A DNA stretch of 39,250 bases from a virus. Positions 20,448 through 36,926 of this stretch are shown one piece after another. Position numbers and translations under genes: made by a program. The notes under the pieces were generated by a model. It did no database searches, was not told where the DNA came from, and saw only the letters and a list, made by a program, of their open reading frames with translations. Positions within the stretch are counted from its first letter, which is position 1; the number at the start of each line of letters is the position of its first letter. The stretch is from positions 1-39,250 of the IMG/VR virus record IMGVR_UViG_3300048834_000083, one strand, 5' to 3'.

Positions 20448-20460
20448 GTCAATGATCTGG

Positions 20461-21075
20461 TTATCGGGCGCGTGAAGCCATCTGTGACTTCTCCACGACC
20501 TTCACTCCTGGGATCTCGACGCCAGCAAGTGCGACCTTCTTGATCTTCACCATGTCGAGTTCCCGTGGCTTGTAATACTCATCAGGGATCGCCTTCTCGT
20601 CCACGATCTCCACTTCCTTCACCTTCTTCAGCGTGAGCGTAGAGCTTCCGGTGTCGGCGGTCTTTTTTGCTTCGGGCATCGCTGCGATCTTCTTCGCTGC
20701 GGTTTCTGGTTTCTGGTAGCCCGACTCGACCTTCCCGATCTCCTTCTCTTTTGCATCAGCGAGACGCTTCTCCTCCGCTTCCATAAATACCTGCGCCTTG
20801 CTTTTCAGCATTGCCTCTACCTCCTCGCACTTCTTGATGAACGGATCGAATGTCGCCTTCGCATGTTCGATGATCGACTTCGCTGGTGCGATGTACTTGT
20901 CACGCACCTCCGTCACTTGCTTCTTCGCTTCCTTCACTGTAGCGATGTGCTCCGCTACCGAGTTGAGCTCTTGCTCGTTCGTGATGGTTATCGCCTCCAT
21001 CTGGCTGTGCAGTGTGGTGATGCGTGTCTCGTGCTCCTTCACCTCCGCTGCCGGTATCACTTCGTTTGTTTGCAT
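20461..21075 (-). CDS. Coiled-coil recombination-region protein
   Basis: A 204-residue protein, mostly a long coiled coil (about residues 10-120), ending in VDEKAIPDEYYKPRELDMVKIKKVALAGVEIPGVKVVEKS. The motif (IPDEYY...D...IK...GVEIPGV) is one I recall from phage proteins encoded beside annealing proteins and exonucleases. The exact function is unknown; it may be a structural partner or inhibitor in recombination. The leader is A-rich (ACACAAAAACAAAACTATG) with no Shine-Dalgarno site. Confidence 0.7.
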   Translation of the reverse strand: MQTNEVIPAAEVKEHETRITTLHSQMEAITITNEQELNSVAEHIATVKEAKKQVTEVRDKYIAPAKSIIEHAKATFDPFIKKCEEVEAMLKSKAQVFMEAEEKRLADAKEKEIGKVESGYQKPETAAKKIAAMPEAKKTADTGSSTLTLKKVKEVEIVDEKAIPDEYYKPRELDMVKIKKVALAGVEIPGVKVVEKSQMASRAR

Positions 21076-21098
21076 AGTTTTGTTTTTGTGTTAGCTGA

Positions 21099-21398
21099 TC
21101 AGTCCCGCAAGCGATCGACCTTCCCGCTTTTTGGGCGTGGGAGTACTTGAAGTGGTGAAGCATCCATCCAGCATTTACCGTCCTTGCATACACGGTACTG
21201 GATGCCGCTCTTGCGCACGATGACGCAGATCACGGTCTTCGGAACGCTCTCGAGATCCGCCTCGCTAGCGATCACCTTCACCCTATACTTTCCCTCCACA
21301 AGAAGGTCATAACCGAGCCCTGGTATATCGCCGACCTCCTTCACGGAGTAGCCACGCTGCCAGAGCTTTCTTTTTACTTGTTCGATCATGCCTTCCAT
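21099..21398 (-). CDS. Hypothetical protein, first gene of unit II
   Basis: About 99 residues from ATG 21398. The frame also contains ATGs at 21416, inside the operator dyad, and 21389. A -10-like TATACT lies 6 nt upstream of 21398. The sequence VKRKLWQRGYSVKEVGDIPGLGYDLLVEGKYRVKVI resembles the small alpha/beta fold of restriction-like or DNA-binding proteins (the GYDLLVEG...RVKV strand pattern), but catalytic residues are not convincing. As the first gene after the shared operator, it may be a regulator. Confidence 0.6.
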   Translation of the reverse strand: MEGMIEQVKRKLWQRGYSVKEVGDIPGLGYDLLVEGKYRVKVIASEADLESVPKTVICVIVRKSGIQYRVCKDGKCWMDASPLQVLPRPKSGKVDRLRD

Positions 21399-21404
21399 AC
21401 GTAT

Positions 21405-21451
21405 AGTATAAATCATTTATAGTGAGATGAACATGCCCACCTGTTAGTAAC
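21405..21451 (-). promoter_or_regulatory. Promoter/operator element, copy 1 (unit II)
   Basis: The minus strand carries GTTACTAAC (21451-21443), 21 nt, then TATAAATGATTTATA (21421-21407), which runs into TATACT (21410-21405), 6 nt before ATG 21398. The dyad and the spacing match the copies at 25351-25398 and 14486-14529. I see no good -35 hexamer at 17 bp, so activator dependence is possible. Confidence 0.65.
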
Positions 21452-21455
21452 TAAA

Positions 21456-21480
21456 GGGGAGCCGGTATACCGAGCTCCCC
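21456..21480 (-). terminator. Probable terminator hairpin of unit I
   Basis: GGGGAGC/GCTCCCC with inner CGGTATACCG gives a strong stem. It starts 6 nt after the stop of the zinc mini-protein. The plus-strand reading has the better T-run (ATTTTTTC); the minus-strand reading has AAAAAA before and only UUUAGUU after the stem. It may work in both directions. Confidence 0.55.
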
Positions 21481-21486
21481 ATTTTT

Positions 21487-21663
21487 TCAGCATCTCGCCC
21501 TGGGCGATCGCCCCCACACGCCGTTCTGCTGCACCGGCTGAAGCGGTAGTTCGAGTTGCTTTTCCTTCTCCCGAATGAAAAGCCACTCGTGCTCCCGTGA
21601 GCAGTAGGGACCGACATGACCTTCCGGCACATCGTCCCCGCACCATTTGCATTTGCGATCCAT
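21487..21663 (-). CDS. Zinc-finger mini-protein, 58 residues
   Basis: MDRKCKWCGDDVPEGHVGPYCSREHEWLF: a CxxC pair plus a later C-x(3)-H gives a clear treble-clef-like zinc site; the rest is a short Gln/Leu-rich tail. The ATG is preceded by AAAGGAGGT with 5-6 nt spacing, the best Shine-Dalgarno site in the window. Overlapping frames at 21413-21670 have no such support. It is the last gene of unit I, followed by a hairpin. Function is unknown; nucleic-acid binding is likely. Confidence 0.7.
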   Translation of the reverse strand: MDRKCKWCGDDVPEGHVGPYCSREHEWLFIREKEKQLELPLQPVQQNGVWGRSPRARC

Positions 21664-21682
21664 CTCGCACCTCCTTTCTCCG

Positions 21683-23173
21683 CTATAAGTATACCTCCAC
21701 CGCCGGCTTCATCGCTTCGCCCCAGGGTACATCGCCACCATACGCTTCCGCCAGCGTCTTGAAGTCCGATCTGTTTTCCTTCACCAGTTCCGCGATCCGC
21801 TTCGGCATCTCCTCGAGCTCCTCCGCGGTGAACGGTCGAGTGAACTCGTCGATCTTCCGGTTCTTGTCTCGGTTGATCTTCTGCACATGCGCGTCGATGT
21901 CGCCTTCGCCCTTCGCCATGTAGTAGACGACCTCCATCTCGTTCTGCTGTTCCGGGCGGTCCATGCGGTTCTCCGCCTGTAGGTTCATGCTCGGCACGAA
22001 GTCCATGTCCACCATCAGCGTCACACTCGCCTCCGGCACATTGCCTCCTTTCGCGTGGCTCTTGATCCGCCCCACGAGCACCTGTGAGCCTTCCGCCTTC
22101 CAGTCAGCGAGATCTTCGAACGACTTCCACGAGATCCCCGCCTTCGTCAGTTCTTCCTGGATCACCCGATCGGTCTCGATGAACAGCGAGAAGATGATGA
22201 TCCTCTTGTCGCCATACTTTCCTGCAGCAATGTCGGCCACCGCTTGCCGAGCCTTCCACCTCGAGTTCACCTGATACACCTGCCCGTTCTCGATCAGCCT
22301 TCGAAGCTCGGTCACATTGGTCATGTTCATGTTGCGCTTCTTCGCCGAGACCAGGTACTCATCCCATGCCCGCTCGTACTCCATGATCCACGGCGCCGAC
22401 TTCTCCACCCACTCCACTCGGCGCTCCTTCTTCTTGAACACATTGGTGTCCTGCTTTCGTCTGAAGATGAAGTGCGACTCCATGAGGTAGCGAAGCTCCC
22501 GCACATTGTTCGCACCCTTCGCCCACCACTGGTAGTACTTCCAGTACTGCTTTTGCACCTGCTCCGGTGTCAGTCCCTCGGTGCTGCGGATCTTCTTGTA
22601 GAACCCGCCAGCGAAGATCCGCTCGAACGCCTTCTGCGACTTTGCCTTCCCATCACCCGCAAGCGGATGCTCGAGTAGCGTGAGTGGTGCGAACAGCTCG
22701 GCCGCTCCGTTCATCATCGGCGTGCCTGAGAGCATGATCAGCACCTCCATCTTCTTCGAGATCTTCCGCACCTTCTTGAAGCGTTGCGATGTGGTCGTCT
22801 TCGCGAGCGTTGCCTCGTCGATCGCCATTGCATCGAACAGCTCCTCGATGTCCTCGTCATCGATCTTGTCGAGTGCTTCCGGGTTGATCCCGCACACCAT
22901 ACGGCTGTCAGCCTGGCGCACCGTCTCGATGTCAGTCTCCCGCAGCGAGATATAGTCCATATCCGTGAAGTGCGCCTCCACCTCCTTCCTGAAGTTCTGG
23001 CTGTTCACGATCTCGTTCTTCTCCGCCACGAGGAGTATGTGCTTCGTCGCCGCCTCGTGCGCGCCACCGATCGCAGTGATGGTCTTCCCCATCCCCATGT
23101 CGAACGCGATGTATGTGCGCCTCACCTCGTTGATGAAAGTGATCGCCTCCTCTTGGTAATCAAAGAACCGCAT
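21683..23173 (-). CDS. SNF2-type superfamily 2 helicase/ATPase
   Basis: I start this at ATG 23173 (MRFFDYQEEAI), where homology-like sequence begins; the frame runs on to 23422 in non-coding style. That gives 496 residues. Motif I is DMGMGKT (25-31), motif II is DEAT (118-121) and motif III is SGTP (148-151). In the second RecA-like domain RIIIFSLFIETDRVIQEEL and ENRMDRPEQQNEM (motif VI) are clear. SNF2-like phage proteins of this size translocate on double-stranded DNA and take part in replication or recombination. It overlaps the preceding gene by 14 nt. Confidence 0.9.
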   Translation of the reverse strand: MRFFDYQEEAITFINEVRRTYIAFDMGMGKTITAIGGAHEAATKHILLVAEKNEIVNSQNFRKEVEAHFTDMDYISLRETDIETVRQADSRMVCGINPEALDKIDDEDIEELFDAMAIDEATLAKTTTSQRFKKVRKISKKMEVLIMLSGTPMMNGAAELFAPLTLLEHPLAGDGKAKSQKAFERIFAGGFYKKIRSTEGLTPEQVQKQYWKYYQWWAKGANNVRELRYLMESHFIFRRKQDTNVFKKKERRVEWVEKSAPWIMEYERAWDEYLVSAKKRNMNMTNVTELRRLIENGQVYQVNSRWKARQAVADIAAGKYGDKRIIIFSLFIETDRVIQEELTKAGISWKSFEDLADWKAEGSQVLVGRIKSHAKGGNVPEASVTLMVDMDFVPSMNLQAENRMDRPEQQNEMEVVYYMAKGEGDIDAHVQKINRDKNRKIDEFTRPFTAEELEEMPKRIAELVKENRSDFKTLAEAYGGDVPWGEAMKPAVEVYL

Positions 23174-23555
23174 GCACTGTCTTGAGTATCGGATAACTGT
23201 TGCCGTGCTTGAAGACGAACGCGATGCCGTCATGCACCACCTTCTCGTCCCCGTTGCTCCGTTGCGTGAGGGTATATGCGAATGTCGCCTTCTCATAGAG
23301 CCAGGAGTAGAGGCCACGCTCCCTCCACTCCTGGACCGGAACGAACTGCGACGCACGATCGATCGAGTGTCCCGACACTTCCATGTCTCCGCCGGCCGAC
23401 GTTCCTCGCCGTGCCAGCTCACTCTCTGCCATCTCTCGTGCCTCGCCTTGGTGTTCGTTCGCCAGGTAGCGCAGATACGACAAAGGCAAGCGTGTCCAGC
23501 GCTCCCCTTCGTGTTTGCCGAATGTGATCAGCTTGTTGTGTGTATCTCGCATCAT
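23160..23555 (-). CDS. DUF3820-like small protein
   Basis: About 131 residues from ATG 23555 or 23552. ITFGKHEGERWTRLPLSYLRYLANEHQGEAREMAESELARRG matches the pattern of DUF3820-type domains (FGKHKG...LPxSYLxWL), which also occur at the C-terminus of some exonucleases. The rest is a mixed domain ending just inside the SNF2 helicase gene. Function is unknown; association with nucleases and helicases suggests nucleic-acid binding. The upstream extension of this frame to 23825 overlaps two other genes and is rejected. Confidence 0.75.
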   Translation of the reverse strand: MMRDTHNKLITFGKHEGERWTRLPLSYLRYLANEHQGEAREMAESELARRGTSAGGDMEVSGHSIDRASQFVPVQEWRERGLYSWLYEKATFAYTLTQRSNGDEKVVHDGIAFVFKHGNSYPILKTVHAVL

Positions 23556-23560
23556 TTTCG

Positions 23561-23725
23561 CTATATGCCCAGTATGCTCGTGCCGAGCTTCCATCCTCCC
23601 TTCGCCAGTTGCCAGGTCAGTCCGAGACCCGCTCCGAACAGGAAGATCGAGACTCCCCACAGAAGAGCCAGAACGACCCACCCGCTGATCTTCGCGAGTA
23701 CTCCCATCACTTGTTCCCTGGTCAT
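23561..23725 (-). CDS. Small membrane protein, 54 residues
   Basis: MTREQVMGVLAKISGWVVLALLWGVSIFLFGAG...: one or two hydrophobic helices (about residues 15-45) with a short cytoplasmic N-terminus and a Lys/Gly-rich end. The ATG overlaps the preceding stop in an ATGA. The family is unknown. It lies in the replication unit rather than in the lysis module, so a membrane tether or host-takeover factor is possible. It is not an obvious holin by position. Confidence 0.65.
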   Translation of the reverse strand: MTREQVMGVLAKISGWVVLALLWGVSIFLFGAGLGLTWQLAKGGWKLGTSILGI

Positions 23726-24231
23726 TTTCTTTTCCCGAACCAGCTACGACCGCCTCCAGCTTCTTCTGTGGCTTGCTGTGGTGCGTCAGGCTGAGAGTTT
23801 TCCTTGTTTTCGACCTTTCCCCCATCTTCCTCCTTTTCGTCGTTTCCTGAGCCTCCTGCGCCTCCGTGGATGTCCTCCGCCGGCTTGAAGCCCGCCTCCT
23901 TCAGCGTCTCGTAAAGAGCCGGAAGCAGTTCTCCCTGCGCATGTCGGATCTCGTCATCGGTCAGCTCCTCGCTTTCCACGAGATCCCCGAGCTCCTTCAC
24001 CATGCCCACCACTGTGGTGTGCATCTCCTCGGTCATCCGGTCGAGTGCCTGCGTCTCCTCCCCACGCGTTTCGATAGCCGATCGCTCGACATCCACCGCA
24101 TCTTCAGAGATCGCCCAGCCCTCTCCCTTCATAAAGCCGCGGTTGATCGCCTCGGCAATTCTTCGGAGCATCGTCATCGCTCCGCCTTTGCCGTCAGTCT
24201 CCGCGTCTACTTTGAGTATGAACTTCTTCAT
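23722..24231 (-). CDS. Hypothetical acidic protein with disordered tail
   Basis: A 169-residue protein. The N-terminal part (FILKVDAETDGKGGAMTMLRRIAEAINRGFMKGEGW) is a small alpha/beta segment, the middle (TEEMHTTVVGMVKELGDLVESEEL) is helical, and the last 55 residues are Gly/Glu/Asn/Gln-rich and probably disordered. I do not recognise it. It sits between a small protein after SSB and the helicase region, preceded by the TTATCAAC/TAACAAC leader. A role in DNA metabolism is inferred from position only. Confidence 0.65.
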   Translation of the reverse strand: MKKFILKVDAETDGKGGAMTMLRRIAEAINRGFMKGEGWAISEDAVDVERSAIETRGEETQALDRMTEEMHTTVVGMVKELGDLVESEELTDDEIRHAQGELLPALYETLKEAGFKPAEDIHGGAGGSGNDEKEEDGGKVENKENSQPDAPQQATEEAGGGRSWFGKRK

Positions 24232-24239
24232 CGTGTTCT

Positions 24240-24257
24240 GTTGTTATTGGTTGATAA
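24240..24257 (-). promoter_or_regulatory. Leader motif TTATCAAC-N3-TAACAAC
   Basis: Minus-strand TTATCAAC CAA TAACAAC lies 8 nt before ATG 24231. The whole gap from the previous stop (TAGGGCGAG...) closely parallels the gap before ATG 24447 (TAGGGTCGAG...), suggesting duplication or strong selection. Confidence 0.6.
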
Positions 24258-24267
24258 AAGTCTCGCC

Positions 24268-24447
24268 CTACTTCTTCGCCTCGATCTCCGCATCCACATC
24301 GACCAGAGCCGCTTGAAGGACTTCCTTGAAGTCCTTCAGCTCTTGCTTGATGTCAGTACGGAGAGTGAAGTTCAGCTGCACATTGCCTTTTGCGTATGAG
24401 AACGCTCGGCTGTCGGTGTGCTGCTTCTTCAGTATTTTCTCTCCCAT
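24268..24447 (-). CDS. Small hypothetical protein after SSB, 59 residues
   Basis: MGEKILKKQHTDSRAFSYAKGNVQLNFTLRTDIKQELKDFKEVLQAALVDVDAEIEAKK, given here as a description: a short beta hairpin region then an amphipathic helix. The residues NVQLNFTLR and the following Lys/Glu helix look like a small partner protein. It lies between SSB and the acidic protein, with the conserved TTATCAAC/TAACAAC leader upstream. I do not recognise the family. Confidence 0.65.
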   Translation of the reverse strand: MGEKILKKQHTDSRAFSYAKGNVQLNFTLRTDIKQELKDFKEVLQAALVDVDAEIEAKK

Positions 24448-24453
24448 GAGTTT

Positions 24454-24471
24454 GTTGTTAGCGGTTGATAA
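24454..24471 (-). promoter_or_regulatory. Leader motif TTATCAAC-N3-TAACAAC
   Basis: Minus-strand TTATCAAC CGC TAACAAC lies 6 nt before ATG 24447. It is identical to the copy before 24231 except for the 3-nt spacer, although the two genes are unrelated. Confidence 0.6.
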
Positions 24472-24482
24472 ATTGCTCGACC

Positions 24483-24899
24483 CTAGAACGGGATGTCCTC
24501 CGGGTTGATGTCACCGATGTCTTCCTCATCCTCCCGATCGTCATCTCTCGCACTCGATGACTTGCTTCCCGCCTTCTGCCCGAACTGGAAGCGATCGACA
24601 ATGATCTCGGTGCGGTACATCTTCTTCCCGCTGTCCTTGTCCTCCCAGCTCTGCGTCTTCAGTCTACCCTCGACATAGAGCTCTTGCCCCTTCTCCACAT
24701 ATTGCGCGATCGTCTCTGCATCTTTGCCGAACGCCACGATGTTGTGGAACTCGGTCTCCTCCTGCTTCTGCTTGTCTTTGTCGTACCAGACTCGGTTCGA
24801 TGCGACCGAGAAGCTGCACGCCTGCGTCCCTGATGGGAGCGACTTGAGCTCTGGATCACGCGTCACCCGTCCGATCACTTGTGCTTTGTTTAAGTTCAT
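24483..24899 (-). CDS. ssb: Single-stranded DNA-binding protein
   Basis: A 138-residue SSB. The OB fold (about 1-105) begins MNLNKAQVIGRVTRDPELK, with SVASNRVWYDKDKQKQEETEFHNIVAFGKDAETIAQYVEKGQELYVEGRLKTQSWEDKDSGKKMYRTEIIVD, the standard bacterial SSB pattern. A short Ser/Asp-rich linker leads to the acidic tip INPEDIPF, the interaction peptide that recruits helicases, nucleases and repair proteins. It protects single-stranded DNA during replication and recombination and may replace host SSB. It is in unit I, upstream of the helicase genes. Confidence 0.95.
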   Translation of the reverse strand: MNLNKAQVIGRVTRDPELKSLPSGTQACSFSVASNRVWYDKDKQKQEETEFHNIVAFGKDAETIAQYVEKGQELYVEGRLKTQSWEDKDSGKKMYRTEIIVDRFQFGQKAGSKSSSARDDDREDEEDIGDINPEDIPF

Positions 24900-24903
24900 A
24901 GTG

Positions 24904-25110
24904 TTAGTTGCTCACCTCGCAGTATGGATACTCGCCGTGGTAGCTGTAGTACTCCGTTGGCGTCATGCCTCCATACTCTTTTGCAACACACTCCTCGTAC
25001 TGCTCCGCCCATCGGAACAGCTTCTCGTCCTGCGCTGCCGACCACTTCAGCACCATCACGATCGCGACGATGATGAGGATCACGACTCCCACTGCTTGTA
25101 TCTTCTGCAT
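24904..25110 (-). CDS. Small single-pass membrane protein
   Basis: A 68-residue protein: an N-terminal hydrophobic helix (residues about 5-24, VGVVILIIVAIVMVLKW) followed by a soluble part containing two Cys and many Tyr/Glu (YEECVAKEYGGMTPTEYYSYHGEYPYC). It could be a membrane protein facing the outside, with a possible disulfide between the two Cys. No family is recognised. Located in unit I before ssb, it may act early, for example at the host envelope, but this is speculative. Confidence 0.65.
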   Translation of the reverse strand: MQKIQAVGVVILIIVAIVMVLKWSAAQDEKLFRWAEQYEECVAKEYGGMTPTEYYSYHGEYPYCEVSN

Positions 25111-25122
25111 AGTGTTTTTTGT

Positions 25123-25305
25123 TTAATACTTCTCTTGATAATCTTCGACCTCCTCGTGGATCTTCTGCGTCATCGGACACGGTTGTGTTCCGATCGGCGC
25201 CATGTGCGGTTCTCCTGGCCACACTTGCTCCATCGTAGTGATGTCCTCGTGTTCGCCATCGATCCCTCCACAGAACTCGCACTCCTCTTTTTCTTCTGTG
25301 TGCAT
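25123..25305 (-). CDS. Small zinc-binding acidic protein, first gene of unit I
   Basis: Sixty residues from ATG 25305. The frame opens at 25362, but that ATG lies within the operator dyad. CEFCGG near the N-terminus and a later CPMTQ with nearby His residues suggest a small zinc site. It is rich in Glu and His. It is the first gene after the control region with the direct repeats, so it may be a regulator or anti-host factor. No family is recognised. Confidence 0.6.
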   Translation of the reverse strand: MHTEEKEECEFCGGIDGEHEDITTMEQVWPGEPHMAPIGTQPCPMTQKIHEEVEDYQEKY

Positions 25306-25350
25306 AGGCGTCTTTGTGGGTTTTTTATTTACTATTGCTCCCACTCCATA

Positions 25351-25398
25351 AGTATAAATCATTTATACCCCACAAGCCATGCCCCGCCTGTTAGTAAC
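25351..25398 (-). promoter_or_regulatory. Promoter/operator element, copy 2 (unit I)
   Basis: On the minus strand GTTACTAAC (25398-25390), 22 nt, then GTATAAATGATTTATAC (25368-25352), a perfect dyad with a central G, running into TATACT (25356-25351). The expected transcript start is near 25344, giving a leader of about 40 nt before ATG 25305. Confidence 0.65.
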
Positions 25399-25400
25399 TA

Positions 25401-25460
25401 CCATGCACAAAAAATGAGCATGGGTTGTCCATGCACAATTTTTAAGCGTATCCATGCACA
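25401..25460 (-). repeat. Three direct repeats of TGTGCATGG (iteron- or operator-like)
   Basis: CCATGCACA occurs on the plus strand at 25401-25409, 25429-25437 and 25452-25460, spaced 28 and 23 bp. A related inverted GCATGG lies between the first two. They sit just upstream of the unit I operator in the largest gene-free stretch (25306-25604, 299 bp). They may bind the initiator or a regulator. Confidence 0.6.
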
Positions 25461-25531
25461 CGGTTTACGCACTAACTATACTCATCTAACAATACTCACT
25501 TTATTAGGGCACGCCCCCCAGTAAGGCAACG

Positions 25532-25563
25532 AAAAAAGGCGAGGTGCAAGTCCCGCCTTTTTC
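25532..25563 (-). terminator. Bidirectional intrinsic terminator
   Basis: AAAAAGGCG pairs with CGCCTTTTT around a 12-nt loop, so both strands have a GC stem flanked by T-runs. On the minus strand it ends transcription after the basic Lys/Ala protein, separating the late region from unit I. Confidence 0.8.
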
Positions 25564-25604
25564 CTGGTGACGCCTATGCAATACGCCCCACCGTGAAGTA
25601 TATC

Positions 25605-25823
25605 CTACTTCTTCGCCGCCTTCTTGCTCGTCTTGCGAGCAGCAGCTTTGCGTGCCGGTGCCTTCTTCTTCGGCGTGAGGTTCACCGTTTCAGTTTTTGA
25701 AGCTGAAGCAGGTGCCTGGCGTTCGATGCTTCGGAACTTGCCGAGCTCGAGTGCCTTGCCGAGATGAGGAGCGAACGCTGGGTTCGCATCGACATGCTCT
25801 TGCTTTACTGTGATGTGTGCCAT
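25605..25823 (-). CDS. Small basic protein with Lys/Ala-rich, histone-like tail
   Basis: From ATG 25823, 72 residues: a short N-terminal segment (MAHITVKQEHVDANPAFAPHLGKALELG), then a basic tail with repeated KKAPARKAAARKTSKKAAKK, like bacterial H1-type (HC1/AlgP-like) tails. Such tails bind DNA non-specifically. It may help condense phage or host DNA, or be packaged. A TGATACAAT box lies 37 nt upstream, with a TTATCAGC...ACAAC leader between. It follows the transglycosylase gene and ends before a strong terminator. Confidence 0.7.
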   Translation of the reverse strand: MAHITVKQEHVDANPAFAPHLGKALELGKFRSIERQAPASASKTETVNLTPKKKAPARKAAARKTSKKAAKK

Positions 25824-25830
25824 AGCTATG

Positions 25831-25869
25831 GTTGTTTTACATATCGCTGATAATGTGCTCATTGTATCA
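25831..25869 (-). promoter_or_regulatory. Promoter-like box TGATACAAT and leader of the basic protein gene
   Basis: TGATACAAT (25861-25869) is an extended -10-like sequence. The leader reads TTATCAGC, 6 nt, TAAAACAAC, 4 nt after the motif to the start context TAGCTATG. It may allow independent late expression. Confidence 0.45.
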
Positions 25870-26340
25870 CCTTGAAGGTGGACGTCCGAGCTTCCTCACG
25901 CAGTCCGGGAACTCTTGCTCCCATCGAACCGCGTCATCATCCATCATGAAGCGCACCATGAGCCGCTGCGCTTCGGGATCGTAGAGCTCGACCTCTCCCA
26001 TCGAGTACCGCACTCGGTACATCTCGAACGTCGTGTCCTTGAACTGAAGAAGCCCATGCGAAGGAGTGCCGTCACGATCGACTGGATTGAGTGCGTTCGG
26101 GTTTCCACCCGACTCGCAGATCTCCAGATCAGTGAGCCACTGCTCTCTCGTCGCCGGTTGCTTCAGCAGTACCTTCTTCGGTTCCTCCAGGTGCGCCGTT
26201 GTTATAGGCTCGATGACCTCCACCTCCTTCACTGGCATCTCTGCGAGTGGTGTGTCACGTGGAACCTCGTCTTCGATTGTCCCTGGTCTCCCCAGTATGT
26301 AGAGGAGCATCAGCCCCCCGATGAAAAATGCTTTCGTCAT
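25867..26340 (-). CDS. Transglycosylase (SLT/lysozyme-like) with N-terminal anchor
   Basis: A 157-residue protein: a hydrophobic N-terminal segment (MTKAFFIGGLMLLYILG, 1-17) acting as signal or anchor, a Pro/Glu-rich linker (20-65), then a small lysozyme-like domain with LEICESGGNPNALNPVDRDGTPSHGLLQFKDTTFEMY. Glu76 in ICESGGNP is the expected catalytic acid, and GLLQF is the second SLT motif. It should cut peptidoglycan glycan strands outside the membrane. It lies downstream of the multidomain lysin, so it may be the lysis glycosidase. A small hairpin (GCCCG/CGGGC) sits just before its start. Confidence 0.85.
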   Translation of the reverse strand: MTKAFFIGGLMLLYILGRPGTIEDEVPRDTPLAEMPVKEVEVIEPITTAHLEEPKKVLLKQPATREQWLTDLEICESGGNPNALNPVDRDGTPSHGLLQFKDTTFEMYRVRYSMGEVELYDPEAQRLMVRFMMDDDAVRWEQEFPDCVRKLGRPPSR

Positions 26341-26375
26341 GACCTGCCCGATACGGCCGGGCTACCGCAGAGCGA

Positions 26376-26675
26376 TCAGTACAGATCGATCTGGCGTGAG
26401 TTGTAGGACGCAGAGACGCCCATCTCACGCTCCGCTTTCGCGATGGTGATGCTGTTCAGTATTGCCTTCCAGATCTCGGCCACGATGAGACCGATCACCA
26501 CCACGAGAGATGCAGGAACTCCTGCGCTCGTGAGCCATGCGTACACATCATGCACGAAGGTTGCCCACTCCGGTGTGAGCACTACGGCGATGAGAGCCGT
26601 GAAGATCAGCGACCCTGCGCTGATGAAGAAAGACTTGATGCGTTTTGACATAAATATATTTGTTATAGCTTGCAA
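26376..26675 (-). CDS. Possible internal holin-like gene within the lysin
   Basis: In frame inside the lysin, TGCTACAAT (26689-26697) overlaps AGGAGGT (26682-26688), which sits 7 nt before TTG 26675; a second start is ATG 26651. The 99-residue (or 91-residue) product MSKRIKSFFISAGSLIFTALIAVVLT... has a basic N-terminus, two membrane helices and a charged tail, the class II holin layout. The sequence TACAATAGGAGGTA also precedes the initiator gene. Separate expression of the membrane part is inferred, not shown. Confidence 0.5.
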   Translation of the reverse strand: MQAITNIFMSKRIKSFFISAGSLIFTALIAVVLTPEWATFVHDVYAWLTSAGVPASLVVVIGLIVAEIWKAILNSITIAKAEREMGVSASYNSRQIDLY

Positions 26676-28157
26676 TGCGTTACCTCCTATTGTAGCACTT
26701 TTGACCCCGAAAAGTGCCTCGTCGATGTTCCCCTGTTGAAAGTCGAGAAGCGAGTATCCGGCCGTGAACTGGAAGTGCGGTCGGTCTTGGAAGCTCTCCC
26801 ACTTCCCGCCCCACTCGAGTCCGATCGCCTCTGCGATCGCTCCAGCCATATCCCACGGTCCCTCGTAAGTGATACCCGATCCCTTCTTGAACGCCACATC
26901 GAACGCGCAGCGCCAGTTGTGAAGGCTCTCGCCTCCCTTCGCATTGGTGACGATCGCTCCTGGCTTCGTGCGCCCTTGAGCATAGAGCTCGTTCTGCTCC
27001 TCGATGGATCGGTACTCGTCAGTCACCATGACCGGGTTGCCGGTCGCCTCCATGATCGCCACAAAGAGATCACGGAGTTCCGCCACCTTCGGGTAGAGCT
27101 CTAGCTCATTTTTTTTTTGAGCGTTCAGTGACGCTCGTGTCTTCGGTCCTAGTCGGCCGTAGCCTGTTGTTTGCGGAGTACCGCTCGAGACGAGGTTCTT
27201 CGTCTTCTGGTATCGCTGCACTGCGTCTTCAGTAAGCGGTCCATAGTGCGGATCGAACTGCGCCTCCACTCCCTGGAAGCATGGCTTCCCATCGAACGCA
27301 GTCTCCTTGATGAGACGCTTCTGCAGTTCCACCACATCCGTGCCGGTCATGCCACGCTCGAGGTCACGAGTGAACACGAACAGCGTCTCCTTCGCATCTT
27401 CGAGGATCTCGTTCGGGATGTCGGTGTACACCATGATGTCGTGGATCTTGCCTTCGTACTCATCGAAGTAGAACCACCCGTTCCCGTCATCTCCCCAGTC
27501 CTCGCCCCATGAGTTGCGGAAGTAGATCTTCACCCGATCCTTCTTCACCTCGAACCCATAGAACACGATGCGGTGACGCCCGCGGTATGGTGTCGGCTTC
27601 ACTGGTAGCTTGCTCCATGCTCCCACTTCGAGCGTGGCGTTCACCACTCCGTTCTGGTAGATCGCCTGCATGATGTCTTCAGCAGTCGCCGCCACGAACG
27701 CATAGCCCCCAGTCCTGCGAAGATGCGCATCCTTCTTGATCGCATCCGTCACCGTGACCTTGATGAACTCCGCATGCGGTAGGCTGTTGTCATCGCCTAC
27801 AAGCGCCTCACGCGCCGCACCCTCATCCTTCAGCACACCGGCCGCCACTCGAGGATAGGTTCCCTCTGCAGCAAGCCCGTCCTTCGCCTTGCATCTCGCA
27901 TACACGAAACGCTTCGAGACCCGCGTCAGTACGCCGGTCTCTTTTCGGTCGAAGTACTCGGCCGTCTTCCCTTCAGCCTGCCCCACGCACGAGCCGTTCT
28001 TCTTCTGATCCTCCACCGGATACTCCGAGAGATCCGTGAGGTACTTCTTCGGCAACGCCACGGGCGCCTGCACGAGTGCGAGCGGGATGTCACGGTTGTC
28101 TGGTGGGTTCAGTGCCGCACCCAGTCCTTTTTCTTCGATCGTTTGTTTTTTTGGCAT
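26376..28157 (-). CDS. Multidomain lysin: papain-like, PG-binding, M15 peptidase and two-TM domains
   Basis: I choose ATG 28157 (593 residues). Residues 35-245 form a papain-like (C1) peptidase: Gln51, Cys57 in GSCVGQ, His195 in GRHRI and Asn215 in RNSWGEDWG. Residues 265-345 are a peptidoglycan-binding domain (GMTGTDVVELQKRL, YGPLTEDAVQRYQ). Residues 355-470 are an M15/VanY-like L,D- or D,D-peptidase with DEYRS, His413-x(6)-Asp420 (SLHNWRCAFDV) and PHFQ (His461). A linker then leads to two hydrophobic helices (508-530 and 545-570), holin-like. The last part has its own possible start. The protein likely degrades wall peptides and possibly the membrane barrier in one polypeptide. Confidence 0.88.
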   Translation of the reverse strand: MPKKQTIEEKGLGAALNPPDNRDIPLALVQAPVALPKKYLTDLSEYPVEDQKKNGSCVGQAEGKTAEYFDRKETGVLTRVSKRFVYARCKAKDGLAAEGTYPRVAAGVLKDEGAAREALVGDDNSLPHAEFIKVTVTDAIKKDAHLRRTGGYAFVAATAEDIMQAIYQNGVVNATLEVGAWSKLPVKPTPYRGRHRIVFYGFEVKKDRVKIYFRNSWGEDWGDDGNGWFYFDEYEGKIHDIMVYTDIPNEILEDAKETLFVFTRDLERGMTGTDVVELQKRLIKETAFDGKPCFQGVEAQFDPHYGPLTEDAVQRYQKTKNLVSSGTPQTTGYGRLGPKTRASLNAQKKNELELYPKVAELRDLFVAIMEATGNPVMVTDEYRSIEEQNELYAQGRTKPGAIVTNAKGGESLHNWRCAFDVAFKKGSGITYEGPWDMAGAIAEAIGLEWGGKWESFQDRPHFQFTAGYSLLDFQQGNIDEALFGVKSATIGGNALQAITNIFMSKRIKSFFISAGSLIFTALIAVVLTPEWATFVHDVYAWLTSAGVPASLVVVIGLIVAEIWKAILNSITIAKAEREMGVSASYNSRQIDLY

Positions 28158-28167
28158 AGTTATTTTT

Positions 28168-28626
28168 TTATTGTCTAGTAGTGTGGTCGAGCACATCGAC
28201 ATGCTTGCCGATGAGGTCGATCAGTTTGGTGATGGCGTTGTTCGTCACCTCCATGTTCTTCGCGAGTGTGGTCACGATGTCGTGCGTCTCGCGTGAGATC
28301 TTCATCGCTTCGAACGCTTGCTGCTGGAACTTCTTGGTGTCATCATCTCGTCCCTGCAACACCTTGATGAGTGTCTCGTTCTCCCGTTCAAGATCGCTCA
28401 CCTTTTTGGTGAGGTTCTCGATGTCAGTGGTCTGCTTGTTCACTTTCGTCTCGAGCTGATCCACTGTCTGCTTGAGGAGATCGATCAGTCGGTCCTCATT
28501 GCCATCGACCTCCTTCCGCCGTTCCCTGGCGCTCTTGTCCCATAGTCCATACAGCGCAATACCGCCGGCTATGATCAAGCCCGCGATAATGATGTATGTG
28601 CCGATGTGATTGAGTATCTGATCCAT
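28168..28626 (-). CDS. Membrane-anchored coiled-coil protein (spanin- or lysis-like)
   Basis: A 152-residue protein: an N-terminal transmembrane segment (THIIIAGLIIAGGIALYGLW-like, about 9-28), then a charged linker and a long coiled coil (about 45-105, DLLKQTVDQLETKVNKQ and LERENETLIKVL). The C-terminal helical part is rich in Ile, Thr and His. The layout of one TM plus a periplasmic or cytoplasmic coiled coil resembles an i-spanin, but there is no obvious o-spanin partner with a lipobox. It sits directly upstream of the lysin and after the tail-tip genes, so a lysis role is likely. Confidence 0.65.
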   Translation of the reverse strand: MDQILNHIGTYIIIAGLIIAGGIALYGLWDKSARERRKEVDGNEDRLIDLLKQTVDQLETKVNKQTTDIENLTKKVSDLERENETLIKVLQGRDDDTKKFQQQAFEAMKISRETHDIVTTLAKNMEVTNNAITKLIDLIGKHVDVLDHTTRQ

Positions 28627-28630
28627 GATG

Positions 28631-30193
28631 CTATTCGATGATCTGCGCCACTACTGCCCGACCTGGTGCGCCGTTTCGACCTGCGATGCCTGCCGTACCA
28701 TTGACTCCCTGCGTTGTCGATCCAGTTCCAGCAATACCCGCAGCACCAGCCGCTCCGCCTATACCTCCCGAAGTGTTGATGGTTCCGCTGTTGGTGAGAG
28801 CTCCCTTGCAGAGAAGGTACACATCCGCACCATCACCGCCATCGCCTCCGTCTCCGCCATCGCCTCCGTCACCAGAGTTGTCATCGGATGCAGTAGATCC
28901 TCCGGCCCCACCGTTTCCGCCGTTGCCACCCGCTGCGAAAATGTTACCAGAGAAGCTGAGCGTGCTATCAGTGAACAGATAGAAGCAAGTCGCTCCGCCT
29001 TTGCCGTCTCCACCGTCTCCACCGTTTCCGCCATCTCCCGATGTGTTGTTCTGTGCCTGGCCACTTCCTCCGTTTCCGCCGTTGCCACCATTGACACCTG
29101 TCCCGCCGTTTCCTCCGTTTCCGCCGGTGTTCTGGTCTCCGTTTCCACCATCACCTCCGTCACCACCATCGCCGTATGTACCATTCCCTCCGTTGCCACC
29201 ATGACCACCGAGAGTACCGTCTGCAGATGTGCCTCCTCCATCGCCACCATCACCTCCAGCGTTCCATCCATCGCCGCCATTGCCTCCGTTTCCACCGCTC
29301 GCTCCGTTATCGAACGCAGAGCCACCGTTTCCACCATTGCCTCCGTTTCCACCATTAGGTCCAGAGTTGCCTCCATGACCTCCATGACCTCCATCGCATC
29401 CGTTGTTCGTACCATTGCCGCCATTGCCGCCATTGCCTCCGTTTCCATCATCCACGCCAGCACCACCCGAACCTCCCGATCCAGCAGCACCAGAGCCAGA
29501 AGCACAATCGCCGCCATTGCCGCCATTGCCTCCGTTCTTGTTGGTCGCTGTAACGCCGGCCGCACCTGAAGTAGATGCACTCGAAGCACCGCCACCTCCG
29601 CCACCTCCGCCGAGTGTTGTGCCGTTTCCGTTTCCTCCGTTTCCACCAGAGCCAGAAGCTCCTGTTCCCGCAGTACCGCCAGTACCCGATGCAGGAGAGA
29701 CTGATCCATCAGATCCGCCCGCTCCACCGTTTCCGCCTCCAGCGTTTGCTCCAGGCGCAGCTTCAGCAGCACCGAGAGATCCTGAAAGTGCGTTTCGTAT
29801 AGATCCCGATGTGAGCACCTGTGAAGATACTGCCACGCCGATCTTGCCAGTCACTACTCCCTGCAGGTTGATGTCTCCCACGATCGTCACCGCTCCCTGG
29901 CATCGGATAACTACCCACGAGTTGCCGGTGAAGCGAAGCGTCGCTCCGGCTGAGATATTGAAAGTCGTGAAGTTGTACACCTGTCCAGTCGCAAGGAACG
30001 CAGTACCGCTCGTGAGGTTGTACGCACCATCGCTTCCATCGCCGCCCTCATGGAACGACAAAAACTCGGAGTGGACTTTTCCGTCCCCCTCGAGTCGTGG
30101 TACGCGATCCACATCATTCGCCGGAGTAGCATCTCGCTCGCTCTGGTTGATGAAGTCGCCCTCTCGTATTTTTTGTCCTGCTCTTAAGGTCAT
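28631..30193 (-). CDS. Gly/Asn-rich tail-tip protein, polyglycine helix-like
   Basis: A 520-residue protein. Residues 1-150 form a normal mixed/beta domain ([29 protein letters not shown]). From about 160 to 440 it consists mostly of [16 protein letters not shown] and GAGG runs with short inserts; the C-terminal 70 residues return to mixed composition. Gly-rich arrays of this kind form polyglycine-II bundles in the gp38-type phage adhesins, where variable loops contact the receptor. A receptor-binding role is inferred. The start overlaps the preceding gene by 4 nt. The plus-strand open frames here are codon shadows of GGN repeats. Confidence 0.8.
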
Positions 30194-30738
30194 GGTGTGT
30201 AGTTGTTACCTGCGTTGATAATGTACTCCACCAGGGTGTCCTCGTTCGATCCCTTCGTGTGTGACGGAGAGATGATCGATCGACAGAAGATCTGCGTCCC
30301 TGTGTAAAGCGCGAACTCCGTGTATGTGTCATTCGGTAGCTCATCGTTTGTGAAGAACCACTCGGTCGTCAGCACGCTCACCGATGTGAACTCTACAGTC
30401 GCCCGTGGCACTCCGACCACCGCTGGCGTTTCGAGCGCCGTGTCGGTATCAGAAGGAGCAGTCGTACCCGTCCCGATCCCGCATGTGTCGAGTTCAAGTG
30501 GGTAGGTGTCATCTCCTCCGAGATGCTTGAGGAACAGGTTCACCCCGTAGTCCTCCGAGAACATGATCTTGTTCGAGATGAAAGCACCTCGCTCCTTCAC
30601 CATGAACTCGAGCAGTCCCATGTGGTACAGCTTCAGCCAGAGACCTGTCGGTATCCAGCTCGGCTTCGCCTTCATGCGAACGATGCGGTACTTGCCGCTG
30701 AAGGGTGGGAGTGATGACTTGAGTGCGATTTTTTCCAT
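30190..30738 (-). CDS. Putative tail-tip structural protein
   Basis: A 182-residue protein with [54 protein letters not shown], then a beta-rich part ([24 protein letters not shown]). I recall similar proteins in phage tail regions but cannot name the family. It lies between the tail-associated protein and the Gly-rich tip protein and overlaps the latter by 4 nt. It may connect the tip protein to the baseplate. A TGCTATACT box lies 7 nt before its ATG. Confidence 0.65.
30202..30221 (-). promoter_or_regulatory. TTATCAAC...TAACAAC motif, coding copy
   Basis: Before ATG 30193 the minus strand reads TTATCAAC, GCAGG, TAACAAC. Here it codes for the last residues of the upstream protein, so it could be coincidence, but order and distance to the ATG match the non-coding copies. 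Confidence 0.35.
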
Positions 30739-30745
30739 TAGTCAA

Positions 30746-30754
30746 AGTATAGCA
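30746..30754 (-). promoter_or_regulatory. Extended -10-like box TGCTATACT
   Basis: TGCTATACT lies in a 32-nt gap, 7 nt before ATG 30738. A transcript from it would have almost no leader. There is no good -35 at 17 bp. Confidence 0.5.
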
Positions 30755-30770
30755 CCGCCCACTCCATTTT

Positions 30771-32225
30771 CTAGGATGAAATGGTGGATTTATTTACCAG
30801 CGCCACATTGCTGTAGCTGTCGCTTCCGGGATCGTTTTGCTCCACCACATAGTCCTCCGATGTGGTGACTGTGATCGTGCCGAGCTCGTCGCTCATCTCG
30901 AACCCATCAGAGAGCGAGAAGAAGTTCAAAAGCGTCTCATCCTCGCCCTCCGAGATGCGCTCATCGAGGAGTAGCTTCTGCAGGATGTCGATCATCGTGA
31001 TCGTCTTCAGCGTAGCGATCTCCGCCCGCCAGATGTATGTCTCCTTGCTCTCCTGGTTGAACGTCACCGACTGGATCAAAAAGTCCTCTGCGATACCGCG
31101 AGAAGGGATGGTGATGTTGATGGTCTGCCCGCTTCGCAGTCCCGCCGTCTGTGTAAGAAAAGAACCCGCACGGATCGCCGCCGCATAGAGCTCGAGCTTC
31201 GCCTGTGCGAACTGAAGCGCCTCGTCTCGTGTCTTCAGCGAGTCGTTGTACTCCACGAACTCATACACGCCATAGAGATTGACGGATGGGTTGTTCTGCT
31301 TCTGCACCACGAGAGGCTTCAGCGGGATGCCCGTGATCTCGATGTTCGTCGTGCCCGATCCTGGCGCTGCCGGTATGTTGCCCGCAGTGAAGCGGATGTA
31401 CTTCTGCTGAAACGACCACATGCAGTCGAAGTCCTCGTCCTGGTTGAGATAGTCCACGCCTACAGTGACCGGCGACCCGTCCACCGTTACTGTCGGGATC
31501 TCTGCGAACTTGTGGTCGGTCGAGAAGGTATCAGTCTCACCGTCTCCAGCCCATAACTTCGTGCGCTCCTCCGCTCGAGCCTCGCCTCCGCGGATCTTCA
31601 CTCGGTTGCGGATCTGCGAGAAGTCGCTCTTGATCACGAGCGAGTCGATGATGAAGTTCCCGCTCGTTGCATCGAGATCGAACGGCGCATCCTCGTCATT
31701 CTTCTTGAAGAAGTGCACATCCTTGAACGCATCCACATACCAGTAGTAGTTCGTCAGCTTCGCCAGTTTGTTGAAGCACTCCGAGAGCGAGAGCTCGTTG
31801 AAAGAGACCGAAGCGATCGCCACTTCCGCCCCTCCCACATTCGTGTCCGTGAACCCGTAGTCGTCAGCGTATCGGTCGATGAGGTCGAGCACCACCGCCT
31901 GCAGGTCGGTGTCCTCATACCGCTCGATGACTCGCTTGCGGTCGAGGTGCTGAGTCCAGTCCTTGCAGGTGACATTGTGCACGATCACTTTGTCGCCTTC
32001 CATGAGCTGCTCCACCTCCACGATCACGCCTCCGAAGGTTCTGGTCCCGTCCACCGTCACGATCACTTCCTGGTTCACCGCCGGCCGAAAGGTCTGCGCT
32101 CCGTACTCCTCGATCGTGAACGAGCAAAGATCCGCCTCTTGGTTGATGCGGTCAGTGACTACCAGTGAAGGGAAGCGCACGAGTGAGCTTCGATCCACTG
32201 CGTTGATTGTGAGTACTACTCCCAT
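30771..32225 (-). CDS. Tail-associated baseplate hub-like protein
   Basis: A 484-residue protein. The start (LTINAVDRSSLVRFPSLVVTDRINQEADLCSFTIEEYG) and the next block (QEVIVTVDGTRTFGGVIVEVEQLMEGDKVIVHNVTCKDWTQHLDRKRV) match gp27/hub-like tail proteins of siphophages. The middle (TNYYWYVDAFKDVHFF) and the C-terminal half (LRSGQTINITIPSRGI, SVTFNQESKETYIWRAEI) fit the same family. No peptidase motif is evident. It lies right after the tape measure gene and probably forms the tail tip that anchors it. The distal tail protein function may be combined here, because no separate Dit-like gene is visible. Confidence 0.8.
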   Translation of the reverse strand: MGVVLTINAVDRSSLVRFPSLVVTDRINQEADLCSFTIEEYGAQTFRPAVNQEVIVTVDGTRTFGGVIVEVEQLMEGDKVIVHNVTCKDWTQHLDRKRVIERYEDTDLQAVVLDLIDRYADDYGFTDTNVGGAEVAIASVSFNELSLSECFNKLAKLTNYYWYVDAFKDVHFFKKNDEDAPFDLDATSGNFIIDSLVIKSDFSQIRNRVKIRGGEARAEERTKLWAGDGETDTFSTDHKFAEIPTVTVDGSPVTVGVDYLNQDEDFDCMWSFQQKYIRFTAGNIPAAPGSGTTNIEITGIPLKPLVVQKQNNPSVNLYGVYEFVEYNDSLKTRDEALQFAQAKLELYAAAIRAGSFLTQTAGLRSGQTINITIPSRGIAEDFLIQSVTFNQESKETYIWRAEIATLKTITMIDILQKLLLDERISEGEDETLLNFFSLSDGFEMSDELGTITVTTSEDYVVEQNDPGSDSYSNVALVNKSTISS

Positions 32226-32228
32226 GTC

Positions 32229-33977
32229 CTAGTACGAGATCTTCGTGCGAAGCTGAAGCTGGCGCACGATGTCGGCAGCGATCTGCTGTGCGATACCTTC
32301 TCGACCCATGAAGGTGCTGCCGTTGAAGTTGATGACGATCGCCGGGCTTCCTCCCATGCCGTTGCTGATGCGTCCCGCGGTCGATGGCGTGAAGATCTCC
32401 GGGCCATGCTCTCCCACGAGATACGAACCTCCGCCGATCACCGGACCACCCGCCGCACGAGCGCCGAGCACTTCCTTCCCTCGATCCACCACCTTGCCGA
32501 GTGCGTCCTTTACACCCGACCCGATGTCCTTGAGCATGTTCTTTAGTTTTTCAAGGACATCGAAAATAGGCTCGACCTTCTCACTGATCCAGTCAAAGAC
32601 GCCACCGATCTGTTCCTTTGCCCACATAAAGACCTCCACCACTCCTTCCCAAAAGGACGAGAAGAACTCGCTCACGGACGCGAACATGGTCTTCATCCAC
32701 TCCCAGGTCGCCACAAAAAATGCCTTGATGCCGTCCCACACCATCTTCCAGTACTCGAGCATCTTCGAGAGGTTCTCCTCCCAGTTCGGCCAGATCATGT
32801 CGAGAAGCATCGCATAGAGCCCCACGATGAAGTAGATGTATGTCATCACCGTGCTCTTGATACTCTCCCACACCTCCACGAAGAACTCCTTCAGTGAGGT
32901 CAGCACCCCTGCGATCGTCTCGTACACCGTATTCCACGCCGATGTGGCGAACGCCACGATCTCGTCCCAGTTCTTATACAAAGCCACCCCTGCTGCGATC
33001 AGGAGCCCTACAGCGAGCGTGATGCCCGCCACGATGCCTACGATCGGCCATGCGACCGTCATGAAGGCAAGCGTCACCACCGCCAGCGTTCCCACCACCG
33101 CCGTGAGCGCAGCAAGCGCACCAACGGCCAGCATGATGCCGGTCGCCAGTTTCGGGTTCGCCTCGATCCACCTTGCGATGGCATCCACCGCCGGGCGTAT
33201 CGCCTCGAGCACCTTCTGTACGATCGGAAGAAGCTGTGCGCCGAGTGTCGCACTCATATCCTTGAACTGCGCCGAGAGGATGCGCTGCTGGTTCGCAAGC
33301 GAGTCCTGGGTATTCTTGAAGTCTCCCGCCGTCACCGCCGTCTGCTTCATGATCAGCTCCACGCGGTAGAGGCGCTTCTCCTGTTCTGTAAGCTCGGTCA
33401 CTGAAGTCGTGATGCCCTTCGAGAGCAGATAGGTCTGAAGTGACGCATCGGTCACATCTCCCGCATATCGACGGATCGCTTCCGTCTCTCCGCGGATCGC
33501 CTGGTTGATGGCACTCATCGCATCGTTCACATCCGTGTTGAACACCGAAGCCATGTCGGCCGCTCGCTCCGTGAGGTTGATGGTCTCACCCGCCACCTCC
33601 TCCATCGAGAGCCCTGTGTCCTTGAGGAGCGCACCCGTGATGGTAGACATCTGGTTGAACTCGCTGTTCGCCATACCCACGGCGGTCGCCGCGTTCTTCC
33701 CGAACTCGAGGATCTTGCCCGCACCTTCACCGAACACCACATTCACCGCGTTCACGGACTCACCGAGGTCAGATGCCTGCTTCACCATCTTGCCCATCGT
33801 GTAACCGATCGCCGCAGTCGCAGCTGCACCCGCAAGTGCCATCTTCTGGAACGCTGGCTGAAGGTCCTGCACTTTCATCTTCACTCGGTCGAGTTCTTTT
33901 GAAACGCCAGAGAAGGCGGCCGATGTACGGTTCTCGCCTTCTAGGATGACTCTCATTTTTTGTTCCATTGTAGCCAT
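32229..33977 (-). CDS. Tape measure protein
   Basis: A 582-residue protein that sets tail length. The N-terminal 250 residues are helical (RMALAGAAATAAIGYTMGKMVKQASDLGESVNAVNVVFG, GETINLTERAADMASVFNTDVNDAMSAINQAIRGE), as in phage tail tape measure domains. Several hydrophobic segments at about 285-350 and 390-420 (PIVGIVAGITLAVGLLIAAG) would help membrane passage of DNA. A run of Trp-rich helices follows, then a Gly-rich C-terminus (GPVIGGGSYLVGEHGPEIFTPS). Using about 0.15 nm per residue, the tail would be roughly 85 nm. It follows the frameshifted chaperone genes, the usual order. Confidence 0.92.
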   Translation of the reverse strand: MATMEQKMRVILEGENRTSAAFSGVSKELDRVKMKVQDLQPAFQKMALAGAAATAAIGYTMGKMVKQASDLGESVNAVNVVFGEGAGKILEFGKNAATAVGMANSEFNQMSTITGALLKDTGLSMEEVAGETINLTERAADMASVFNTDVNDAMSAINQAIRGETEAIRRYAGDVTDASLQTYLLSKGITTSVTELTEQEKRLYRVELIMKQTAVTAGDFKNTQDSLANQQRILSAQFKDMSATLGAQLLPIVQKVLEAIRPAVDAIARWIEANPKLATGIMLAVGALAALTAVVGTLAVVTLAFMTVAWPIVGIVAGITLAVGLLIAAGVALYKNWDEIVAFATSAWNTVYETIAGVLTSLKEFFVEVWESIKSTVMTYIYFIVGLYAMLLDMIWPNWEENLSKMLEYWKMVWDGIKAFFVATWEWMKTMFASVSEFFSSFWEGVVEVFMWAKEQIGGVFDWISEKVEPIFDVLEKLKNMLKDIGSGVKDALGKVVDRGKEVLGARAAGGPVIGGGSYLVGEHGPEIFTPSTAGRISNGMGGSPAIVINFNGSTFMGREGIAQQIAADIVRQLQLRTKISY

Positions 33978-33989
33978 AGTGGTGTTGTG

Positions 33990-34513: not shown

Positions 34514-34527
34514 AGTTTTTTTACCTG

Positions 34528-35511: not shown

Positions 35512-35518
35512 AAAATTG

Positions 35519-35536
35519 GTTGCTATTTATTGATAA
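35519..35536 (-). promoter_or_regulatory. Leader motif, TTATCAAT-N3-TAGCAAC variant
   Basis: It begins inside the last codons of the upstream small gene and ends 7 nt before ATG 35511. It differs from the consensus by one base in each half. Confidence 0.4.
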
Positions 35537-35678
35537 TTTTCTCCGCTTCCTCTCTGGTCTCCGCCTCCACGGACTTCTGATGCTGCGGGAAGAAGAACCG
35601 CTTTTTCTTGCGAGGCTTCTCCTGCTTTGTCTCCTCCTGGGAGGTGGTGATCATCTTGTTGCGTGGTGCTTTTTCCAT
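35523..35678 (-). CDS. Small basic tail-region protein, 51 residues
   Basis: A short gene from ATG 35678 to TAG 35523. The protein is Lys/Arg-rich in the first half (EKPRKKKRFFFPQ) and ends SVEAETREEAEKIINK. The segment FFFPQHQKSVEAETREEAEK resembles small proteins often placed between the tail terminator and tail tube genes of siphophages, which I recall as uncharacterised. A TGCTAAACT box lies 6 nt before its ATG. It may assist tube assembly. Confidence 0.65.
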   Translation of the reverse strand: MEKAPRNKMITTSQEETKQEKPRKKKRFFFPQHQKSVEAETREEAEKIINK

Positions 35679-35684
35679 AGGTGT

Positions 35685-35693
35685 AGTTTAGCA
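35685..35693 (-). promoter_or_regulatory. -10-like box TGCTAAACT
   Basis: It lies 6 nt before ATG 35678, just after the stop of the upstream gene. It is part of the recurring TGCTAnAnT series. Confidence 0.4.
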
Positions 35694-35695
35694 CA

Positions 35696-36139: not shown

Positions 36140-36146
36140 AGTGATT

Positions 36147-36925: not shown

Positions 36926-36926
36926 G

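Follow-up and report, generated by a model that had tools for sequence, protein, structure and literature searches.

In-frame internal translation starts are established in endolysins (PMC3111421, PMC9430671, PMC4777826, PMC7098653), and in the endolysins of Enc34 and M4Lys an enzyme part comes first and membrane helices last within one protein, the accessible text on both describing neither an internal promoter nor an internal start (PMC8943055, PMC7143992). A natural fusion of holin and endolysin is also found in a TpeE-family protein of Clostridium sporogenes, in the opposite order, with the holin first and the endolysin C-terminal (PMC9527704). The locus analyzed here shares the layout of Enc34 and M4Lys. 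It lies in a whole IMG/VR virus record of 39,250 bp (hereafter the window), where an open frame of 608 codons on the minus strand (28202–26376) joins a lysin to a membrane segment. Whereas the enzyme part of Enc34 belongs to the PHA02564 family, Pfam matches define three consecutive domains in the present 608-residue product, all encoded on the minus strand: a papain-like C1 peptidase domain (27465–28019, residues 62–246; PF00112, E 5e-9), a peptidoglycan-binding domain or PGBD (27180–27347, residues 286–341; PF01471) and an M15 endopeptidase domain (26709–27095, residues 370–498; PF13539/PF02557, PHROG 2649). They are followed by two hydrophobic helices.

The M15 match is above the Pfam cutoff and the signature SxHN...AFD...HFQ is present; H64, D71 and H112 (numbering of the aligned M15 fragment), which we take to be the metal ligands, are invariant in all six sequences compared. 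The lysin likely starts at the second ATG of the frame, at 28157, since the stretch upstream of it is AT-rich and the first 15 codons of the frame do not resemble coding sequence. On the same strand, the upstream gene (28168–28626) encodes an N-terminal membrane helix and a charged, probably coiled-coil region, a putatively XhlA-like protein by resemblance, and the downstream gene (25867–26340) an SLT transglycosylase-like protein whose N-terminus is hydrophobic. Protein searches of viral contigs returned nothing closely related to the whole lysin, the upstream gene product or the membrane part, and no tRNA or Rfam match was found in the window. Further upstream, the open reading frame 28631–30193 carries many short GGC/GGA/AAC-rich repeats at 28850–29520 (minus strand) and probably encodes a glycine-rich protein, without family match. 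The longest homopolymer of the window, a run of ten A on the sense strand (27109–27118, minus), lies in the lysin frame between PGBD and M15; a run longer or shorter by one base would bring a stop after a few codons and leave C1-PGBD alone, which is a complete gene in the relatives L042–L045, and the run is a possible slippage site.

The membrane part, P0002 (26651–26379, minus), comprises 91 residues counted from an in-frame ATG at 26651 and contains two hydrophobic helices, which appear as hydropathy peaks at residues 522–551 and 553–588 of the 608-residue product and form a C-terminal two-helix membrane domain. It has no family match: neither a known holin family nor any other PHROG was matched, and Pfam gave only a weak, irrelevant match (E 0.096). 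The structure model contains helices at residues 2–24, 27–42 and 47–90, with a pLDDT of 76.7 and a pTM of 0.42, too weak for a fold search. The layout is nevertheless that of a two-helix holin, being small, with two membrane helices and a position next to the lysin as in relatives, and by its size, helices and place P0002 is probably a holin. Read from the sequence, positive charges stand before helix 1 (MSKRIK) and K/R residues follow helix 2, so that both ends of the membrane part are suggested to lie inside the cell and the lysin part of a fusion would be cytoplasmic.

We compared the junction with 153 other M15 loci, five from named phages and 148 from two overlapping scans of which the best 80 each were taken. 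M15 homologues terminate at or near the position corresponding to residue 498: 149 of the 153 have their stop no more than 25 codons past the local match, two run off their contig, and two (L172 and L204) have longer C-terminal parts, which contain no membrane helix. None of the 151 that end inside the contig continues into a membrane segment. In the nearest homologues, L046 (58%) and L047 (49%), the M15 lysin stops one codon beyond the position that corresponds to residue 498, and a two-helix protein is encoded separately, its open reading frame beginning 11 nt and 1 nt downstream, respectively. Pseudomonas phage LPPA15 has a TAG stop at the end of its M15 gene, and the gene of a membrane protein starts 3 nt further on without a change of frame. 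A nearby open reading frame with a hydrophobic helix is present in 35 of 85 M15 loci, absent from 48 and not to be judged in two that are too short, which makes a membrane protein next to an M15 lysin common, not general. A search with the portal protein yielded 34 relatives, many of them fragmentary records, five of which carry a papain lysin; in all five the lysin ends and a small hydrophobic open reading frame follows separately downstream. In one of the portal relatives (L041, 655–2232, minus) the papain domain shares its protein with a putative M23-like peptidase segment in place of PGBD or M15, and the C1 domain seems to have been combined with different second enzymes across the phage group. 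Since homologues stop at the junction and relatives possess a separate small membrane protein, the record appears to hold two genes in one frame, and the membrane part very probably derives from a gene of its own.

One rival explanation is a single protein. No stop codon interrupts the frame, endolysins that end in a two-helix membrane domain have been described (PMC8943055, PMC7143992), and the product of 28168–28626, with its own membrane helix, might serve membrane permeabilization; the locus could thus encode one endolysin of this type only, the signals at the junction being functionless leftovers. We regard this as unlikely, though deserving of serious consideration: the membrane segment is absent from all other M15 loci that can be judged, the charges preceding helix 1 suggest a cytoplasmic lysin part, and the linker between the M15 domain and the membrane part has no coding character. 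The linker, a putative former intergenic region (26708–26652, minus, codons 499–517), is AT-rich, uses rare codons and contains the promoter candidate discussed below. Its mean log w (log relative adaptiveness) is −1.42, compared with −0.33 for the M15 domain and −0.45 for the holin part, and none of the 2775 in-frame stretches of 19 codons taken from 23 genes of the window reaches so low a value. Along the whole frame, AT content in 60-nt windows is highest in the linker and in the stretch before the ATG at 28157; AT-richness and codon use overlap as evidence, AT-richness alone contributing to odd codons.

Because about 19% of letter shuffles of the linker leave it open in frame, an accidental in-frame fusion does not appear very unlikely. 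The same figure, multiplied by one third for the frame, can be put to the opposite use, in favor of an error in the record: one or more wrong bases near 26715–26700 would mask the lysin stop, and the real phage would carry two ordinary genes. Homologues do stop within codons of this position, and the other two frames both reach a stop inside AATAGGAGGTAAC, so that a single-base indel would close the lysin frame. On the other hand, the junction stretch contains no homopolymer longer than four bases. A second record of this phage, in which the open junction could be checked, was not found, and we consider such an error rather improbable.

A sequence-only reading had proposed that the junction contains a promoter, a Shine-Dalgarno (SD) sequence and a TTG start for a separate holin. 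The letters are as it described them: the extended −10 element TGCTACAAT (26697–26689), the SD-like string AGGAGGT (26688–26682) and an in-frame TTG (26675–26673) are all present on the minus strand at the boundary between the M15 domain and the membrane helices, the gap between AGGAGGT and TTG being 6 nt and not 7. The recurrence of 14 bases before the initiator gene is likewise confirmed, TACAATAGGAGGTA occurring exactly twice, at 26694–26681 and 14488–14475 (minus), where the second copy adjoins the initial ATG of the gene for a DnaD/O-like replication initiator (13741–14475) in the order −10 box, 7 nt, ATG. No other 14-mer that is repeated on the coding strand has both its copies at most 45 nt before a start in the list used, which itself includes 26651. 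As for the promoter, it is a good candidate in terms of its −10 match, which stands above chance, while its activity is only inferred. TGNTAYAAT matches the window four times against 0.63 expected, always on the coding strand, and the junction is the sole sense-strand occurrence of TGNTA[TCA]AAT inside the 40 called genes (35,157 coding nt). No −35 element is recognizable at the junction and a simple sigma-70 scan returned no two-hexamer promoter there, but that scan is powerless here, with four promoter-like sites in 20000–39250 against 7.0 expected. Antisense open reading frames across the junction were also considered, and nothing spoke in their favor.

The way in which genes start in this phage and its surroundings was then compared using automatic starts, defined as the first ATG of long open reading frames, with control ATGs from the same genes. 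No SD enrichment is seen in the window, where a five-base match 3–12 nt upstream is found at 0/39 starts and 26/254 internal ATGs, nor in the 34 portal relatives (8/339 starts vs. 123/2188 control ATGs). Other phages' M15-lysin loci, in which SD sequences are detected (82/346 vs. 43/1325), served as a positive control and indicate that the test works. Pieces of Patescibacteria genomes show no clear enrichment (14/181 vs. 53/1027), a single piece (G050 C1) differing with matches at 4 of 14 starts. The stated rarity of SD sites holds for the start signal and not for the string: shuffles predict 5.1 copies of AGGAGGT and the window has 15, of which 14 are on the coding strand.

What precedes many starts instead is a −10 hexamer. 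In the window, 4 of 44 hand-picked starts have one 5–14 nt upstream, compared with 0.26% of 759 other ATGs, and it is found 5–12 nt before 3/39 automatic starts and 0/254 controls; at the window starts that have a box, the spacing to the ATG is 7–9 nt. At the same distance of 5–12 nt the counts are 88/339 vs. 65/2188 in the 34 portal relatives, among which apparent near-duplicates with shared sites (e.g., L013/L014, L020/L021, L029/L030) make the p-values of the start signals too small, and 37/181 vs. 32/1027 in the Patescibacteria pieces, some of which come from contigs carrying a portal relative; contigs without one that were counted individually (G050 C1, G245 C3, G040, G041, G043, G045) show the box at 10 of 68 starts. 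M15-lysin loci show no such enrichment (4/346 vs. 39/1325). Half of the relatives' −10 sites at 5–10 nt (39/78) bear a TG extension, as does the junction box, and TGNTA[TCA]AAT has 35 upstream matches 6–10 nt before an ATG in the relatives, compared with 33 sense and 23 antisense matches inside their genes (344,622 coding nt). In the portal loci L007–L040 and the Patescibacteria pieces L145–L164, the boxes often read TGNTATAAT and stand 6–9 nt before the ATG. It looks as if leaderless or very short-leader expression were widespread in Patescibacteria-linked phages and probably in their hosts. AT-rich biases before non-SD gene starts are reported from several phyla (PMC5397173); in the limited literature available we found no report of leaderless or −10-adjacent starts in Patescibacteria, the accessible parts of PMC12641178 and PMC6851277 being silent on them. 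Portal relatives were found in 10 of 379 Patescibacteria genomes, and the host of the present phage is probably a member of this group. A match of 51% lies in a Patescibacteria bin and another match in a Planctomycetaceae bin, so that binning errors are possible. Elsewhere in the window, TAGTTACTAACAGG and TATAAATGATTTATACT co-occur at 25400–25362 and 21453–21416 (minus), at the starts of two small open reading frames (25123–25362 and 21099–21416), and these pairs look like paired control regions or diverged paralogues.

Taken together, the explanation that we prefer, and hold to be about evenly poised between right and wrong, is that a promoter at the junction gives rise to a short-leader mRNA from which a separate holin is translated, in addition to a lysin-holin fusion made when translation of the lysin continues past the junction. 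The domain order, the missing stop codon, the non-coding-like linker, the promoter match and the lack of SD use are observed, and the promoter activity, the transcript start, the separate translation and the holin function are predicted from them. In this scenario, loss of the lysin stop codon would have turned the genes of the lysin and of the two-helix holin-like protein into one open frame, the former intergenic gap remaining regulatory. RNA polymerase would bind TGCTACAAT and start near 26682–26680 (minus), 7–9 nt past the −10 box, a position deduced from the −10-to-ATG spacing in the phage and its relatives. The resulting short mRNA, with an AT-rich leader of about 30 nt and no SD sequence, would be translated from the ATG at 26651 into the 91-residue holin-like protein, and AGGAGGT would merely fill the stretch from the −10 box to the transcript start, with no role in ribosome binding. 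Translation of the lysin, probably from the ATG at 28157, would pass the junction and also produce the fusion, which may be a harmless by-product, a tethered lysin or an antiholin. Against this explanation stand the background of such boxes inside the relatives' genes, the absence of a recognizable −35 element and the spacing: a box about 6–9 nt before the start is found at 14475, 6678, 30738 and 37511, whereas the junction box lies 13 nt from the TTG and 37 nt from the ATG at 26651, which is not the standard start of its group.

An elaboration of the preferred explanation would make the ratio of the fusion, acting as tethered lysin and antiholin because of its bulky lysin part in the cytoplasm, to the separate holin from the junction promoter a clock for lysis. 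Dual-start holins are known, and such a clock would be their promoter-based, SD-free counterpart; we regard both the clock and this parallel as quite unlikely. The separate synthesis, presented in the sequence-only reading as a new way of timing lysis, follows in any case a known principle, that of the in-frame C-terminal product made separately.

Separate production of the holin is therefore plausible by way of the junction promoter and a formerly separate gene, and not by way of AGGAGGT and TTG. In the latter model AGGAGGT is a working SD sequence and the TTG at 26675 starts a holin of 99 residues; the perfect seven-base match 6 nt from an in-frame TTG speaks for it, and AGGAGGT could act on longer read-through mRNAs that contain it. 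We judge it very unlikely. SD sequences are not used at starts in the phage and its relatives, where the matches fall below the controls in both sets. At the junction, coding character is weakest in the eight codons from the TTG to just before the ATG (mean log w −1.93), whereas an A/T-rich stretch, such as tends to lie upstream of starts in the window, stands before the ATG at 26651. With AGGAGGT placed after the −10 box and before the expected transcript start, the mRNA of the junction promoter would largely lack it; promoter and SD sequence cannot both serve one transcript, AGGAGGT being included only in a longer mRNA from upstream. As a ribosome-binding site the string also fails at 14475, where it stands 0 nt from the first ATG of the initiator gene, unusable by any SD interaction; in the order TACAAT, AGGAGGT, ATG it fills the usual −10-to-ATG gap of 7 nt. 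The second in-frame ATG of that gene is 12 nt past AGGAGGT. The discriminator reading leaves unexplained why TACAAT is followed by AGGAGGTA at both sites, with eight identical bases after the box, and none of the relatives' 78 discriminators contains GGAG. Inspection by eye of the holin genes of L041, L042, L044, L046 and L047 revealed a TG-extended box in none of the five; in L047 an unextended TACAAT stands 13 nt before the ATG, and in L041 AGGAG stands 10 nt before the ATG, so that SD sequences may not be wholly absent from the group.

That a phage or host factor binds TACAATAGGAGGTA and thereby couples replication, through the initiator gene, to lysis, through the holin, would fit a 14-mer that is alone on the coding strand in having both copies upstream of listed starts, but it is most improbable, with only two copies in the window and the 13-mer TACAATAGGAGGT found in none of 125 loci apart from the window's own copy. 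In the same 125 loci AATAGGAGGTA occurs in one unrelated locus only (L121, minus strand), and the replication initiator has a single match in 22 records, limited to residues 155–223.

If the preferred explanation is true, the locus shows two lysis genes midway through a fusion, the holin being kept separate by transcription and not by a ribosome-binding site. It may matter more that a −10 box directly before the ATG, and not an SD sequence, marks many genes in Patescibacteria-linked phages and in the Patescibacteria pieces; if this is true, start prediction becomes testable in barely cultured Patescibacteria and their phages, and SD-based readings in such genomes call for caution.

With respect to known systems, the predicted arrangement resembles that of Ms6 lysA (a mycobacteriophage gene), CTP1L and LysIME-EF1, in which a full-length protein and a shorter C-terminal product share one frame and one stop. 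The short product is in those cases a lysin or wall-binding part, whereas here it is a putative membrane protein. The endolysin gene of staphylococcal phage 187 contains a holin gene in another reading frame. The internal start of Ms6 has a consensus ribosome-binding site (PMC3111421), in contrast to the present junction, which has a candidate promoter and no usable SD sequence. In Deinococcus-Thermus, a −10-like motif about 6–7 bp before the open reading frame gives rise to leaderless mRNA (PMC12340547); the boxes before starts in this phage, its relatives and the Patescibacteria pieces are similar, in another phylum, although the junction box is too far from its ATG for a leaderless start. 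As in Shigella VirF21, a promoter internal to a gene would lead to production of an in-frame C-terminal part, the VirF21 mRNA being leaderless and beginning 1–2 nt before its ATG, whereas the leader predicted here measures about 30 nt (PMC5101355).
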